Below are positions 19,309-60,715 of a DNA stretch of 64,000 bases, one piece after another; the first letter of the stretch is position 1, and each line of letters begins with the position of its first letter. The stretch comes from Powellomyces hirtus (taxonomy: Eukaryota > Chytridiomycota > Chytridiomycetes > Spizellomycetales > Powellomycetaceae), in NCBI GenBank assembly GCA_025526995.1, contig JAHLKG010000020.1, positions 62,001 through 126,000 of the forward strand, read 5' to 3'. Below the pieces are notes generated by a model. The model did not search any database and had not been told where the DNA came from. It saw nothing but the letters and a program-made list of their open reading frames with translations. The position numbers and the translations under genes are program-made.

Positions 19309-19547
19309 TGTTAGCACGTACAGACTCTGTCATCGAGTCACAACTGCGCCATCGCAGGGCGTATCACGCGATCACGTGAGCCCACGTAATCAGCTCCGAT
19401 ATAAGTAGTTTTCCTTCCATACTTAATATATTGGTGGGACTTTTCTCTTTTTCTCCAGTAGAGCGGGATTAAGTTACTTCGTTGTTCTGCTCAGTCAACT
19501 ACCCTAAAGCTTCCTCAACTATCTACTCAGATACTCTCAGACCAACA
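19309..19547 (+). repeat. 5' LTR of copia A1
   Basis: 239 bp, TG...CA ends. Contains CACGTG-type sites near 19374-19388 (the second is mutated to CACGTA here), TATAAG at 19400-19405 as likely promoter TATA, and is followed at once by the primer-binding site. Confidence 0.95.
19400..19405 (+). promoter_or_regulatory. TATA box of the A-family LTR promoter
   Basis: TATAAG in the middle of the LTR, about 15-25 bp downstream of the paired CACGTG sites; the same arrangement is present in the other A-family LTRs (for example 25341-25346 in the A1 3' LTR). Confidence 0.6.
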
Positions 19548-19559
19548 GGTTATAAGCCC
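19548..19559 (+). other. Primer-binding site, internal half-tRNA-iMet type
   Basis: GGTTATAAGCCC directly after the 5' LTR. Copy A3 has GGTTATGAGCCC (60716-60727), complementary to the anticodon stem-loop of initiator tRNA-Met (GGGCUCAUAACC, with the CAU anticodon) rather than to its 3' end. This is the priming mode known for Drosophila copia and yeast Ty5. A1 carries one mismatch. Confidence 0.75.
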
Positions 19560-24442: not shown

Positions 24443-25133
24443 CTACACCGCAATTGCGGAACCCGAAGCAATGCCTCCCAAAGAGGATGGGCCTGCCCCT
24501 CCTCCATCATCCTCATCGCTTGAGGGTGAGCGTCGGCTTGAAGAACTCGATGGTCCCTCCAACTCCTCAGCTGCCCCCTCCTCCTCCTCCTCTTCCTCAT
24601 CATTACATGGAGCTTCACGCTCCAGGATGTCCCACATCCTCTTCACCTCCGCTGCAGACTTCTTGTCCGCAGCCTTCTTCTTCGCCTGGGCTGTACCCTT
24701 GCCCTTCCCAACCGCCAGCTTCCGGCTCCGCCGGTCCTCTAGTATGGACCTCAGTCCATCAAGCGTCCCGGTCGCCCGTGCGCGACCAAGAGGCGTACGG
24801 GACCTTGCCCGGTCTTTCACCCGGTCTTTTGCCTGCTCAATGTGACGTTCCAGGACCCCTTGACGGTCCTTGCGGTGGAACTGTTGGGCATGCGCTGCCG
24901 ACATCGTTCGAATCTCCGCTCGGGACAACCCCGCAGCGGGTGCACCTCCCTGTGGCACAGAGGGCACCACTGACGACGGCACAGCAGGAGCTGTGGTCGT
25001 TGCAGGAGCGGTTACCGGCGGTCCTGTCTTTCTCGCCGTCTGCTTCGCCTTGCCCGAACCTGACAACTACACCGGCACATAATTAGAATCGTACGCCTCA
25101 TTGGCGCAGATCTTATAGACGTACCCTGGCCAT
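24443..25133 (-). CDS. Antisense cargo gene of copia A1 with histone H3 tail-like N-terminus
   Basis: Opposite strand to pol, between RNase H and the 3' LTR. The long open frame (24443-25066) lacks its own ATG and is preceded by a stop. A short first exon 25125-25133 (ATG GCC AGG) with donor GTACGT, branch-like TTCTAAT and acceptor TAG at 25067 joins it in phase 0; intron 58 nt; about 210 aa. The product starts MAR-LSGSG-KAKQTARKTG; KQTARK equals H3 residues 4-9. After an Ala/Pro/Thr linker comes a charged, probably helical region (LSRAEIRTMSAAHAQQFHRK, RQGVLERHIEQAKDRVKD, DKKSAAEVKRMWDILERE), then a poly-Glu block and a Ser/Gly tail. No known enzyme domain. Its stop faces the pol stop 61 nt away. 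The same gene with the same splice signals is kept in A2 with 13% amino-acid change. Function unknown. Confidence 0.72.
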
Positions 25134-25249: not shown

Positions 25250-25488
25250 TGTTAGCACGTACAGACTCTGTCATTGAGTCACAACTGCGCCATCGCAGGG
25301 CGTATCACGCGATCACGTGAGCCCACGTGATCAACTCCGATATAAGTAGTTTTCCTTCCATACTTAATATATCGGTGGGACTTTTCTCTTTTTCTCCAGT
25401 AGAGCGGGATTAAGTTACTTCGTTGTTCTGCTCAGTCAACTACCCTAAAGCTTCCTCAACTATCTACTCAGATACTCTCAGCCCAACA
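25250..25488 (+). repeat. 3' LTR of copia A1 with E-box palindrome
   Basis: 239 bp. Contains a perfect inverted repeat with 9-bp arms GATCACGTG (25311-25319) and CACGTGATC (25324-25332) and a 4-bp spacer, giving two CACGTG cores, then TATAAG at 25341. Such symmetry could drive transcription both ways, including the antisense gene that starts 117 bp inside. Followed by the target duplication GAAAT. Confidence 0.95.
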
Positions 25489-25644
25489 GAAATTGAAAAA
25501 ATCAGAGATGCAAGGGCTAGAGATTTGGAAGAGAAACGAGAGCGGGAACGTTGTCAAGTCCACACTGAGGAAGTGGAGCTCCTAAAACTGAAGGTAGAGC
25601 TTGCAAAAGCTCAGTCCAATAGTAATGTTAATGTATCTGGTTAA
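25489..25644 (+). pseudogene. SANT/Myb-like protein gene, 3' part after copia A1
   Basis: Reading resumes here in the same phase as upstream of the element, through the duplicated GAAAT. It encodes a charged helix (EKIRDARARDLEEKRERER, then VELLKLKVELAKAQ) and stops at 25642-25644. The upstream half also ends in a charged helix, so the two halves together make one coiled coil, which supports a single ancestral ORF cut by A1. Confidence 0.6.
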
Positions 25645-55293: not shown

Positions 55294-55533
55294 TGTTGGT
55301 CTGAGAGTATCTGGGTAGATAGTTGAGGAAGCTTTCAGGGTAGTTGACTGAGCAAAACAATGAAGTAACTTAATCCCGCTCTGTTGGAGAAAAAGAGAAA
55401 AGTCCCACCGATATATTAAGTATGTAAGGAAAACTACTTATATCGGAGTTGATCACGTGGGTTCACGTGATCGCGTGATACGCCCTGCAATGGCGCAGTC
55501 GTGACTCGATGACAGAGTTTGTACACGCTAACA
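55294..55533 (-). repeat. 3' LTR of copia A2
   Basis: 240 bp; reads TGTTAGCGTGTAC...CAACA on the minus strand. Preceded internally by the polypurine tract (CCCCCACTC on the plus strand at 55534-55542). Retains the GATCACGTG/CACGTGATC pair except for one changed spacer base. Confidence 0.93.
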
Positions 55534-55649: not shown

Positions 55650-56333
55650 ATGGCTAGGGTACGTCTATGAGATCCGCGCAAATGAGGCGTAAGCTCTAAC
55701 TATGTGCCGGTGTAGTTGTCAGGTTCAGGCAAGGCGAAGCAGACGGCGAGAAAGACGGGACCGCAGGCAGCTGCTCCTGCGACGACCACAGCTCCGGCTG
55801 TGCTGTCGTCAGTGGTGCCCTCTGCGCCAGTGGGAGGCGCACCCGCTGCGGGGTTGTCCCGAGCGGAGATTCGAACGATGTCGGCAGCGTATGCCCGACA
55901 GTTCCACCGCAAGGACCGTCAAGGGGTCCTTGAACGTCACATCGAGCAGGCGCAAGACCGGGTGAAGGACCAGGTGAGGTCCGGTACGCCTCTTGGTCGC
56001 GCACGGGCGAGCGGGATGGTTGATGGACTGAGGTCCATACTAGAGGACTGGCGGAGCCGGAAGCTGGCGGTTGGGAAGGACAAGGGTACAGCCCAGGCAA
56101 AGAAGAAGACTGCGGACAAGAAGTCTGCAGCGGAGGTGAAGAGGATGTGGGACATCCTGGAGCGGGAGGCTCCGTATAATGATGAGGAAGAGGAGGAGGG
56201 GGAAGCCGAGGAGTTGGAGGGACCACCGGTCTCTCCAAGCCGACACTCACCCTCAAGCGATGAGGATGATGGAGGAGGGGCAGGCCCATCCTCCTTGGGG
56301 GGCATTGCTTCGGGTTCCGCAATTGCGGTGTAG
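55650..56333 (+). CDS. Antisense cargo gene of copia A2 with histone H3 tail-like N-terminus
   Basis: Copy of the A1 antisense gene, here on the plus strand and intact. Exon 1 55650-55658 (ATG GCT AGG), donor GTACGT, branch site CTCTAAC (55694-55700), acceptor TAG at 55713-55715, exon 2 55716-56333; intron 57 nt; 208 aa. N-terminus MAR-LSGSG-KAKQTARKTG is unchanged from A1 while about 13% of other residues differ. The middle charged helices (QQ/RQ variants of AQQFHRKDRQGVLERHIEQA, then KSAAEVKRMWDILEREAP), the acidic run (two codons shorter) and the SGSAIAV end are all kept. It overlaps, on the other strand, an open extension of A2 pol. Transcription would start in or near the LTR 117 bp upstream. 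Confidence 0.75.
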
Positions 56334-59300
56334 ATGCCAAGGTAAGCCAGTGTTGTGAGTAATTCTCCTGACATTCAGCGAGTAACACTTGGGCTTGGTG
56401 TGCTTCCGTAGACGCGCCCTCGTTGAGTATTCTCTCATCAAATATATGAGTCCCGTTCGTAATCCTCAGGACAGTGTCCTTATGTTTCACAGTGGGAAAA
56501 GGCTTTGTAAAGATGTCTGCCAGTTGATCGTCCGTATTGGTGTCGATGATTTCGATAATTTGCTTCACGAACGAACCGCGTATAGCGTGGTACCGAACGT
56601 CGATGTGTTTGGTGCGTTGGTTGATAGCCTTAGACTGAATCAAGGCCCCGGCGCTCTGGTTATCGACATGGAGAGGGACTGGTTTAGATTTGTAATCCGG
56701 TTGAGGTCCCAAAACTTCCGCCAAGAGTTGGCGTAGCCATTTGGCTTTGTTGTGGCCGGTACTGGCAGCTATGTACTCCGCTTCGGTTGTACTTTGGGCG
56801 GTGCACTTCTGCTTGCTGCTTTTCCACAGAACAGGAAACCCATTGTAAAGGGCCAAAATACCTGTAGTGGACGTCCGGTCGGTGAGTTCTCCTGCATAAC
56901 CCGCATCCGTGAATACCCGTAGGCCACGTGGATCATTTCGTTCGGATGTGAACTTGAGGGCATAGTCGCGGGTACCCTTCAAATAGCGGAAAATGCGTTT
57001 AACATTGTTCCAGTCGGAGTTGGTAGGTGCGGCCATGCGGCGCGCAACGTAACCGACTGCAGTGGCAATATCCCATCGCCATGTGATGGAGGCCCAAGTG
57101 AGGACCCCCACTGCTTCCTGATACATTTGTAGATTCGTGAATCGTGTCGAATCCTCCGGTTGTTGGTTACGCCCTGACACGGCGTACGGGGTGGAGACAG
57201 GATGGCAGTCGCTCATGCCGAATTGTGCAAGAGCGTCGTCGATGTACTTGACATTTGAGATTTCGAGGGTACGAACAGGAGAGTCGAAGTCATATTTGTA
57301 GATGAGACCAAGGTGACTGGTTACGCGACCTTGTTCCGTAAACTTGAACTTTGAATGTAACTCCATTTTGCTGTTCGCCAGAATCTCCGGATCCTTTGCT
57401 GCAATGAGCAGATCGTCGACGAAGACGAGAATGAGGACCAAATTGTCGTTAGACAGAGGTGTACGGTCGTCTGTCGCGTACTTGAAAAAGATACACGGGC
57501 ATACAGAAACCGCTTCGTAGCCGATCTTCAACAGTGCAGTCTTCAAGGTCTCATACCAAAGAAGAGGTGATTGCTTCAGGCCGTAGAGAGCTTTCAGTAG
57601 CTTCAGGACCCACTCGCCTTTGGGGTGATCCGGATTTTCGAATCCCTCAAACTGCTCGATATAGATATCCTTATCAATATCACTGTTAAGGAAGGCGGTG
57701 ACAGCGTCCATACTGTGGATGTCCAGCCCGTGCTGAACACAATACGCCAAGAAGAGGCGTAGCGCTGTGAATGGTAGCGTAGGTGAGTATGTATCACCAA
57801 AGTCGCGACCAGGTTGTTGAGAGAAGCCTTGAGCCACTGCTCTGGCTTTGAACTTGTTAAAGGTGCCATCGGGATTGACCTTCGTTTGAAAGACCCATGT
57901 TGTGCCGATCACGTGCTTGTTACGTGGACGCTTGGTGAGTTCCCATGTACCGTTGTCGACCAGGGATTGGTACTCAATGCGTGCAGCCTTGAGAAATTCC
58001 TCCTTCTGAGGGGTTTTCATCGCTTGCTTCCATGTCATGGCGTCTTCGTTGATCGTTGCTTGAGTCCGCGCGCGAGCGGCGTATGCAGCGATGGGGTCAT
58101 TTCGTCGTGTGCCAACATCGTACGCGGCGACTCGATTCTCCCAGTCATCCAATGCGGTAGTATTGAGTAGTGAAAGTCGGGACTCCCACATAGGTTCTTG
58201 ATATCCCTCCCACTTAACCAAGTACTCTTTTGTGTGCACCTTACTGCGGCGCTCGTCGATAATCGCCTCCACGGTGTATTCGACGTCATCCTCCTGACTC
58301 TCCTCATCTAAAAGGTCAAGATGTGCTGGATCCTGCTGATATTTGGGTTCGAGTCCCAAGTCTTCTTTGAAGATCACGTCTCGTGACACTTCGACCTTGT
58401 CAGCAACAGGATCCCATACCAGATACCCCTTGGTACCTGAGGGTTGAGCATAGCCTACCAAGTAAGCCTTCTTCGCTCGATTCCCCATTTTATCGCGTCC
58501 TTTGCTTGTTAGAACGGAATACGCCACGCAACCGATACGCCGAAGGTGGGCGACATCAGGACGCCGGCCAAATAGGATTTCATGCAGCATCTTCTTGTTG
58601 ATGCGGTTGTACGTAAGGGAATAGATGTATCCAGCCGCTACCAGTAGAGCAGGCCAGAATCTTCGGGGTAGTTTTGTATCCACAAAGGTGGTGCGGACCC
58701 TGTCCAGCGCCGTGCGATGCCATTGTGTGGCAATCCCGTTTTGCTGACTTGAATAGGCCACGGACTTTTGATGAGTGATACCATTCTTCAATAGGTACTC
58801 TAGAACCTCGCCAAAGTATTCGGTGCCTTGATCCGTGCGTAGAATCTTCATTTGTTGGTCAGTCTGTTTCTCAATCCAAGCCTTGTAGATGAGAAACTTT
58901 TCGAGTATGACTGCTAATTCCTTTGAAGGAATAGGGAAAACAGTCACGTATCTGGATGTGTGTTCAATGAACTCCAGCGAATAGCGTGATCCTTCGTAAC
59001 CAGGGATGCGAAATGGTCCCTGTAGGTCTGAATGAATCAGCTCACAGATCGCCCTGGTTTCAACGTTACCAAGGGAGAATGGAAGGCGAGCGGCTTTTCC
59101 TAGCACACAGGCTTCACAATCTTTGAAGTCGCTTAGATTCCCCACTACGGACTAACCGTCCGTAACCGATGCCATCTTCTCCAGGACGTGTTTGCCAACG
59201 TGTCCAAGACGAGCATGAGCGAGTGTAGGAGAGACTTCGTCAGTGCATGCTTCTGAATCTGACCACAGACTTTCAGACAGCAGCGTACCTTGCAGGTAAT

Positions 59301-60476
59301 ACGCGTTGTTGCGGCGTACGCCTTTGGCAATATCTTTGCCGTCTTGCGTGAAAATGACGTCTCCATTTGACTTGAAGAGCACGTCAACGCCTTGATTGTT
59401 GCATTTCGCTACCGATACGAGATCTCGTCGTAATCCTGGCACATGCAGGACTCCGCCCAACTCGAGCGGATTCGGATAGTTGTTAACTTCGACTCGTACC
59501 GTACCTCGAACTGTAGAGGGTAGTGATGTTTTGTCAGCAAGCATAACAGCTCTGACATCACTGTACACGGTTGAGTGATCCAAGGTCGCTTTGTGAGGTG
59601 TCATGTGGTCCGTAGCGCCAGAGTCGATGAGGGCTTCATACGGTTGTTCTTGGCGGACCCAGACGTGTAATGCTTCCACAGCATTTGTGCTAACAGCACC
59701 ATCAGACGACTGCTTCGTCTTGTTCTTCTCCATCTCGGATTTGAGCTTCTTTAACACTTCGCACTCCTGTGTTCGGTGTTTAGGGTCTCCACAGGCCCAA
59801 CAACCCGACTTTTGGGTTTGGCCTTTGTTTGATGGAGTAGATTCCTTGTCCTTCTTGCCGTTCGTTGACTTCTCCCCGTGGGTCTTGCCACCATTTTGTT
59901 TCTTAGAGGCGTCAGTGTGTGCGGCACCTGGTCGCGTATCCGTTGTGGTCCCGCTAGGTTTCTTAGCCATGTTGGCGGCGATCCTGGATGCAGTGGCCTG
60001 TAAACTGCTCAAATCAGTTATGTTTTCTTCATTAGCCTGAACCAAGGCCGCAAGGTCTGGTGTTAGCGCGTTGATGAAGTAATCCTGAAGGACGTAATCC
60101 GGTGTCTTCGGCAGAGAGAATGCCAGCATGTTGAACTGAGTGATGTACTCATCCATGCGGCCTTTGGGATGCAATTCCCATAGTTTCTGCAGCAAATCCC
60201 TAGTGTGGTTTCGTGGCGCGAAGCGCGCCAGAAGGGCGGACCTAAGACCGGTGTTGGTTCTTCCTGAATCAACATCTTCAAAGTCATGCCACGTCGTAAT
60301 TTCGTTCCTTTTATTTGGTGAGAGCGACTGCCACCAAGTGTATGCCCATCCTGTGAGTTTCGTAGCCACAAAATCTACGAGAAACTCGGGCGGAACCATT
60401 TCGTACTCCACAACTGTCTCAATCTTGTCGATGAACGTTTGAAGTTTGACCATATTGGCTTCCCCGTTGTAAGATC
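55696..60476 (-). pseudogene. A2 gag-pol polyprotein, truncated, one nonsense codon, read-through 3' end
   Basis: Same domain order as A1: gag (from YNGEANMVKL onward), zinc knuckle CWACGDPKHRTQEC, protease DSGATDHM, integrase, chromodomain (about 58132-58286; EYTVEAIID ... YLVKWEGY ... MWE, cage residues kept), reverse transcriptase with FVDDLL, RNase H. Breaks: TAG at 59152-59154 where A1 has TGG. The integrase catalytic Glu of A1 (IAERWHR) is Thr here (IATQWHR, codon 58726-58728), and the RNase H TDADYA is TDAGYA. Where A1 ends with TGA, A2 has CAA, so the frame stays open about 240 more codons across the antisense gene; the added sequence is Pro/Ser-rich with no domain. Confidence 0.92.
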
Positions 60477-60715
60477 TGTTAGCACGTACAGACTCTGTCA
60501 TCGAGTCATAACTGCGCCATCGCAGGGCGTATCACGCGATCACGTGAACCCACGTGATCAACTCCAATATAAGTAGTTTTCCTTCCATACTCAATATATC
60601 GGTGGGACTTTTCTCTTTTTCTCCAATAGAGCGGGATTAAGTTACTTCGTTGTTCTGCTCAGTCAACTACCCTAAAGCTTCCTCAACTATCTACCCAGAT
60701 ACTCTCAGACAAACA
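60477..60715 (+). repeat. 5' LTR of copia A3
   Basis: 239 bp, TGTTAGC...AAACA. Differs from A1 LTRs at scattered positions. Followed by GGTTATGAGCCC, a perfect 12-nt complement of the initiator tRNA-Met anticodon arm. Confidence 0.93.

Follow-up and report, generated by a model that had tools for sequence, protein, structure and literature searches.

Organization of element A and of its antisense gene

The window analysed here is a stretch of 64,000 nucleotides of the Powellomyces hirtus genome (contig JAHLKG010000020.1, positions 62,001 to 126,000) and contains two copies, A1 and A2, of an LTR retrotransposon, element A. The element is assigned to Ty1/copia by an SH3_retrovirus match and a sub-cut-off rve match placed before RVT_2, together with the LTRs found in A1. 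Toward the 3' LTR, on the strand opposite to pol, both copies carry a predicted spliced gene whose product begins with a stretch similar to the tail of histone H3. The features are the following.

Copy A2
55408..55446, no strand assigned: near-palindromic TATA-containing core of the 3' LTR, CCGATATATTAAGTA .. TACTTATATCGG
55533: edge of the 3' LTR, TGTTAGC
55650..55658, + strand: exon 1 (coding part), ATGGCTAGG, encoding Met-Ala-Arg; ATG in 51/51 places that cover the site
55659..55715, + strand: intron of 57 nt, GTACGT...CTCTAAC...GTGTAG, whose final TAG is an in-frame stop if unspliced
55716..56333, + strand: exon 2, 205 codons and stop, constrained frame
55737..55754, + strand: KQTARK codons, equivalent to H3 residues 4-9
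55746-55757, + strand: ARKT core
55752-55754, + strand: H3K9-like lysine
55696..59151, - strand: pol frame with integrase, chromodomain, RVT_2 and RNase H, open through the antisense gene and unconstrained there
58132..58281, - strand: chromodomain in pol (PF00385), between integrase and reverse transcriptase
59152..60531, - strand: gag/protease-side frame with Ty3-type capsid, Retrotrans_gag and Pol_BBD matches; gag_pre-integrs below cut-off

Copy A1
19309..19548, + strand: 5' LTR, matching stretch of 240 nt, 98% identical to the 3' LTR
24443..25066, - strand: exon 2, 207 codons and stop
25067..25124, - strand: intron of 58 nt
25125..25133, - strand: exon 1, ATGGCCAGG
25250..25489, + strand: 3' LTR, matching stretch of 240 nt

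In A2, the antisense gene (55650-56333, + strand) starts with ATGGCTAGG, which is followed by GTACGT and a 57-nt GT..TAG intron ending in GCCGGTGTAG. The spliced product would have 208 amino acids, beginning MARLSGSGKAKQTARKTG and terminating at the stop TAG in 56331-56333; the next Met after the start is residue 58 of the spliced protein. The signals described in the sequence-only reading, namely the ATG at 55650, the GTACGT donor, CTCTAAC, the TAG acceptor and the in-phase frame of 205 codons, are all present at their positions. In A1, the gene extends from the ATG at 25133 to 24443 and encodes a product of 210 amino acids. This copy had been described as keeping every signal and the 18 N-terminal residues unchanged; the 18 residues are indeed identical, but the intron has 58 nt and CTCTAAC is replaced by TTCTAAT. 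The identity of exon 2 between A1 and A2 is 92.7% for DNA and 88.3% for protein, and the divergence of about 13% earlier given for the remainder thus applies to the protein (11.7% of amino acids) but not to the exon-2 DNA (7.3% of nucleotides).

The antisense ATG is located 116 nt inside the 3' LTR edge. Both arms of the TATA-containing core of the LTR, with at most 2 substitutions each, were found in 45/46 copies, and this core is a plausible candidate for a two-way promoter. An Rfam scan of the 64-kb window gave no match.

Two further observations concern the sense strand. Opposite the entire antisense gene (55696-56333, - strand), the pol frame remains open in 20/46 copies and could encode a proline-rich pol tail without constraint. 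The gag side (59152-60531) is of Ty3 type and pol of copia type, as if the capsid were Gypsy-derived.

Copies of the family and constraint on the antisense frame

A protein search of the genome (29.26 Mb in 60 contigs) with the antisense product returned 128 rows, from which we selected at least 112 places that cover the N-terminal part of the frame. The question of whether other family A copies carry KQTARK is answered by 82 of these places, which have the exact KQTARK codons. Across the genome, exact KQTARK-coding DNA occurs at 87 sites: the 82 of the family, three in H3 genes and two elsewhere (C2:1880451 and C5:731589); a control with the reversed pattern found 5 sites. Three sets of copies were compared. 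The whole-gene set comprises 46 copies (45 distinct), 40 picked by likeness to A2 and 6 from a search with A1 (A1 included), and the splice-signal set has 52 places, formed by these 46 and 6 divergent ones. Exact KQTARK codons are absent from 30 places, of which 28 were examined, eight among the 52 copies and 20 as short stretches, the remaining two lying on contig C26; the motif set of 72 places is deliberately enriched for places without KQTARK. Across the compared stretch, identity to A2 is about 92-96% in the 46 core copies.

The proposal of an antisense spliced protein-coding gene is backed by codon-position, dN/dS and shared/private tests across the copies, and on this comparative evidence the antisense frame is almost certainly a selected gene. 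Parsimony on a tree joining the 45 distinct copies gave 0.515, 0.704 and 1.306 changes per site for antisense codon positions 1, 2 and 3 of exon 2, respectively. The RNase H stretch (56481-57200) presented the corresponding excess at pol third positions (1.429 vs 0.713 and 0.404), and 20,000 site permutations never reached either excess. In the same test, no clear codon phase emerged on the LTR side or in the 147 bases that separate exon 2 from the RNase H stretch (56334-56480). Inside the antisense frame, the phase is clearest in codons 4-38 (0/20,000 permutations), and codons 57-208 are constrained too (4/20,000).

The dN/dS of the antisense frame across the 45 distinct copies is 0.65, which represents a weak overall constraint, and falls to 0.36 in codons 4-38, the first 35 codons of exon 2. 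For comparison, RNase H in the pol frame has 0.49 and the LTR side about 1.1-1.3; a value of 0.71 was obtained for the opposite frame whose third positions coincide with those of the antisense frame, as this overlap would lead one to expect. Shared and private changes (given as shared/private) also differ between S and N over the full length of the antisense frame (S 66/41, N 68/82, p=0.011), as in the RNase H pol frame (S 82/56, N 65/82, p=0.013); codons 4-38 taken alone gave no significant difference (S 18/12, N 8/13, p=0.16).

The splice signals are well kept over the 52 places, with GT in 51, AG in 52, GTACGT in 48, TAG in 50 and CTAAC in 49. The ATG is present in 51/52, the exception being L068, in which the examined stretch begins downstream of the ATG site. 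The most constrained codons, 4-38, sit 5' of the next Met and right after the in-frame acceptor TAG (present in 50/52 places), and a translation entry other than via a spliced upstream exon would be hard to reconcile with this arrangement. From these signals, splicing of the gene is highly probable. A frame without function had been expected to acquire random stops and to lose splice sites and KQTARK at the neutral rate. The splice sites have been kept; the deficit of stops is less clear, with 3 observed vs 6.5 expected in the antisense frame (P=0.075), compared with 7 vs 13.2 in the RNase H pol frame (P=0.03).

An alternative acceptor, AAG, 18 nt downstream, would give MARAKQTARKTG, a closer match to H3 (MARAKQTARK). 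It was rejected, since only 12/45 distinct copies have AAG and 33/45 read AAA. In seven copies of a sister subfamily (L068, L070, L084, L085, L088, L092 and L093) the acceptor TAG is instead GAG or AAG; the stop codon at the intron end is thereby lost, and splicing may be optional there.

The H3-like tail, the pol chromodomain and host genes

KQTARK-coding DNA being rare in the genome, the probability that one given frame of 205 codons contains KQTARK by chance was reckoned at about 1e-5. As many histone hexamers and many frames are open to notice, the hexamer alone constitutes modest evidence. Among the 15 variants found in KAKQTARKTG, the shared ones are all synonymous (8), and the private ones divide into 3 synonymous and 4 amino-acid changes (Fisher p=0.026, a small sample and with relatedness ignored); each amino-acid change is private to a single copy, and synonymous ones are shared. 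Among 203 six-codon windows of the frame, 29 are kept equally or better, and hence KQTARK is well kept but not unique.

The likeness to H3 is not uniform along the tail. ARKT, which corresponds to the A-R-K-S/T pattern of H3K9 mimics (H3 residues 7-10), was found in 64/72 places, with its Arg in 71/72 and the Thr after Lys in 71/72; among the eight places that lack ARKT are a stop, a deletion and replacements of Ala, Lys or Thr. The ARKT core is also retained in the sister subfamily. The earlier equation of KQTARK with H3 residues 4-9 holds for this core across copies, but the equivalent of H3 Gln5 is Met or Ile in 16/72 places, some of which also have Met for Thr6, and ARKT is present in all 16. 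Similarly, the proposed match of MAR to the H3 start is found in A2 and A1, but its Arg is Lys in 3/45 and Ser in 2/45 distinct copies, and Lys in two sister copies. With Gln5 replaced in 16/72 places and Arg2 not strict, the H3 match is tight only at ARKT, and the best-kept part is the minimal H3K9-like motif ARKT, rather than the whole H3 start.

The remainder of the protein does not resemble a histone: no histone Pfam match was obtained, and no solved chain matched the antisense protein. An AlphaFold2 model of exon 2 from 28 sequences, of poor quality (mean pLDDT 52.9), presents an unstructured start, helices at 49-62, 66-89, 92-117 and 123-151, and an unstructured acidic end. As regards flexibility of the motif, secondary structure begins only at residue 49 of exon 2 in this poor model. 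A Pfam scan of one full antisense copy gave nothing above the cut-off. Weak matches among 28 antisense members were to PDCD7 (24/28, best E 0.017), DUF6604 (19/28, best E 0.0032), MerR-DNA-bind (2, best E 0.0051), Pox_Ag35 (8, best E 0.023) and three more.

The only relatives found in the databases are two proteins, P0001 and P0002, the latter a Powellomyces hirtus record; a profile search with the antisense protein added none, so that conservation is not deep. Among viral contigs a search found no relative, only 8 pattern matches. The part shared by P0002 begins at LSGSG, which is the position of the predicted TAG acceptor. This record is named DNA polymerase, and its C-terminal part corresponds to the start of antisense exon 2; it is probably a fused gene model.

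The pol chromodomain, missed in the sequence-only reading, scored 30.5 bits against a cut-off of 25.1. Its nearest solved chains are CDY and CDYL, followed by SRP43, CBX5, HP1, Swi6 and Polycomb; the chromodomains of SRP43 and Polycomb are not known to be H3K9me readers. The Tyr/Trp/Tyr positions of the pol chromodomain, which correspond to a methyl-lysine cage of HP1/CDY type, are unchanged in 5 aligned copies and present in the sister-subfamily copy L097. Judged by sequence and by this aromatic cage, expected of an H3K9me reader, the pol chromodomain is of HP1/CDY type. An AlphaFold2 model of it was poor (mean pLDDT 52.5), and a protein search with the region found nothing among 714 candidates. 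In the sister subfamily, four stretches were sampled blindly and one of them, that of L097, contained the chromodomain, where a Tyr is changed to Cys and a stop occurs further on. The remaining three had probably missed its place and thus say nothing on absence. Genome-wide, 150 of 455 Chromo candidates were scored and all 150 were above the cut-off, many in long open frames, which may belong to Gypsy chromoviruses.

The host genome, by domain matches, has Clr4-like and HP1-like genes. One Pre-SET match was found, in the region of C5:1036725; its frame is closest to Clr4 (E 2.5e-23), and a different frame of this locus encodes a SET domain. Two chromoshadow matches were also found, one with an adjacent Chromo match. 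Together with the pol chromodomain, these genes provide candidates for each partner that an H3K9 mimic needs.

Possible role of the gene and alternative explanations

Our best reading, offered tentatively, is that element A carries a spliced antisense accessory gene whose product may act as a methylatable, H3K9-like ligand of chromodomains; the ligand action of the H3-like tail is, taken by itself, also a possibility to be held with reserve. Transcription would come from the 3' LTR side, a single splicing event would join the short MAR exon to exon 2, and the protein would have a basic, flexible tail at its N-terminus, helices in the middle and an acidic end. The tail would present the lysine of ARKT to the host H3K9 methyltransferase and, once methylated, could bind the integrase chromodomain of the element or host HP1 instead of H3K9me. 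The outcome would be a tuning of the integration of the element into heterochromatin, or of its own silencing. A more specific version, which we consider unlikely, is that the element encodes both halves of the interaction, with the antisense tail methylated by the Clr4-like enzyme and occupying the chromodomain of its own pol. If this were true, a self-made ligand would limit or redirect integration into heterochromatin, a form of copy-number control via histone mimicry.

The motif that G9a automethylates is ARKT. According to PMC9768651, G9a and GLP modify H3-like motifs of their own by methylation, and HP1 is then bound by these motifs; ARKS is described in PMC10611923 as a recognised target motif of EHMT1/2. 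By analogy, the chemistry of the proposed mimic is plausible. Element A resembles these enzymes in having ARK(S/T) in a basic stretch, with candidates for the host H3K9 methyltransferase and chromodomain. Unlike in G9a and GLP, the motif is here encoded antisense in a retrotransposon, and the mimic is a putative one.

Antisense genes are known from other LTR elements. HBZ of HTLV-1 is an antisense gene driven by the 3' LTR, with a spliced form, and the accessory proteins HBZ and APH of HTLV-type retroviruses are nuclear and have a spliced form with a slightly different N-terminus (PMC10186651). The gene of element A is like them in lying opposite pol, near the 3' LTR, in a frame kept by selection. 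It differs from HBZ in that no bZIP was found in Pfam scans of element A, in the host kingdom and element superfamily, and in that its splicing is predicted. HBZ is also not known to have an H3-like tail. In plants, Retand, Grande and RIRE2 have antisense ORFs between pol and the 3' LTR in most copies, with a proposed regulatory role, as given for these Gypsy elements in PMC11963269, and the position and orientation of the ORF are the same in element A. The plant ORFs (in Retand, a Gypsy element, among others) mostly carry TRP28 (PF04195), and Pfam found none in element A, which is a fungal Ty1/copia element.

The chromodomain itself is apparently rare for the superfamily in a fungal Ty1/copia pol. 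A 2017 paper stated that chromodomains had earlier been shown only in Gypsy chromoviruses and in the diatom Ty1/copia group CoDi-I (PMC5348765). Element A shares with the system of that paper a chromodomain beside the integrase of a Ty1/copia element, and differs from it in being fungal and in combining the chromodomain with an H3-like accessory protein. A survey of fungal LTR elements describes chromodomains in Gypsy elements, and the word 'antisense' is absent from the available main text (PMC3248453). The combination of an antisense accessory gene, an H3K9-like motif and a chromodomain in a fungal copia element was not found in the accessible text of the open-access PMC literature. Taken separately, antisense accessory genes have been described for retroviruses and for Gypsy elements of plants, and motifs like that of H3K9 for host enzymes. 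The sequences suggest an element that communicates with the gene-silencing system of its host. Should the tail bind HP1 or the chromodomain of pol, the element would couple its spread to the silencing mark of the host through a self-made protein, and with over 100 places in a single genome this reading is testable.

Equally likely as this chromodomain-ligand reading is that the selected spliced gene is real and its H3-like stretch is a basic tail for nuclear import or nucleic-acid binding, fortuitously similar to H3. The activity of the protein would then reside in the helical middle, and the protein could for instance regulate LTR transcription or be a partner of gag or RNA. The tail is indeed rich in lysine, the sister subfamily having for instance KKTK, KKKK or KVK before M(T/M)ARKT. 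Constraint extends over codons 57-208, and the 29/203 windows that match or beat KQTARK point in the same direction. Antisense proteins of other LTR elements are nuclear regulators, with no H3 mimicry mentioned in the available text of PMC11963269 and PMC10186651. A bare basic signal, however, would allow swaps of Lys and Arg and would not need Ala-Arg-Lys-Thr, whose Arg and Thr are each kept in 71/72 places, and the element also encodes a chromodomain near those of H3K9me readers.

The absence of any function, with frame and motif merely inherited by young copies, is very improbable. The core copies are close to A2 and the LTRs of A1 are 98% identical, but shared ancestry explains neither the third-position bias in one frame nor the indels: distinct indels in multiples of three are 6/9 in exon 2, against 3/13 in RNase H and 1/17 on the LTR side. 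A net change of frame occurs in 3/45 copies in exon 2, 9/45 in RNase H and 19/45 on the LTR side.

Coding by the sense strand, in which pol would continue as a proline-rich tail as far as 55696 and its base composition would account for the antisense frame as a by-product, has a negligible probability and was rejected on codon phase, dN/dS, stops and shared/private changes. The pol frame is open from 57198 to 55696 in 20/46 copies, but over exon 2 its second positions vary most, its dN/dS is 1.15 and its shared and private changes do not differ (p=1). Stops there are about as expected (5 vs 6.4), so that the openness of pol opposite the antisense gene looks itself like a by-product.

The capture of the first exon of a host H3 gene, which MAR and KQTARK at the start and the closer match via the AAG acceptor would favour, has hardly any probability either, as that acceptor exists in a minority of the copies, Pfam detects no histone, and the three H3 genes found in the host are uninterrupted after MAR (their first intron follows GGVK) and use other codons (CAG/CAA ACC GCC/GCT CGC AAG vs CAG ACG GCG AGA AAG in the element).

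Concerning the distribution of the family, some copies are evenly spaced, 12,070 bases apart on contig C28 (93947, 106017 and 118087) and about 12,200 bases apart on C26 (173173, 185373 and 197572), which suggests tandem duplication of larger units containing the element.
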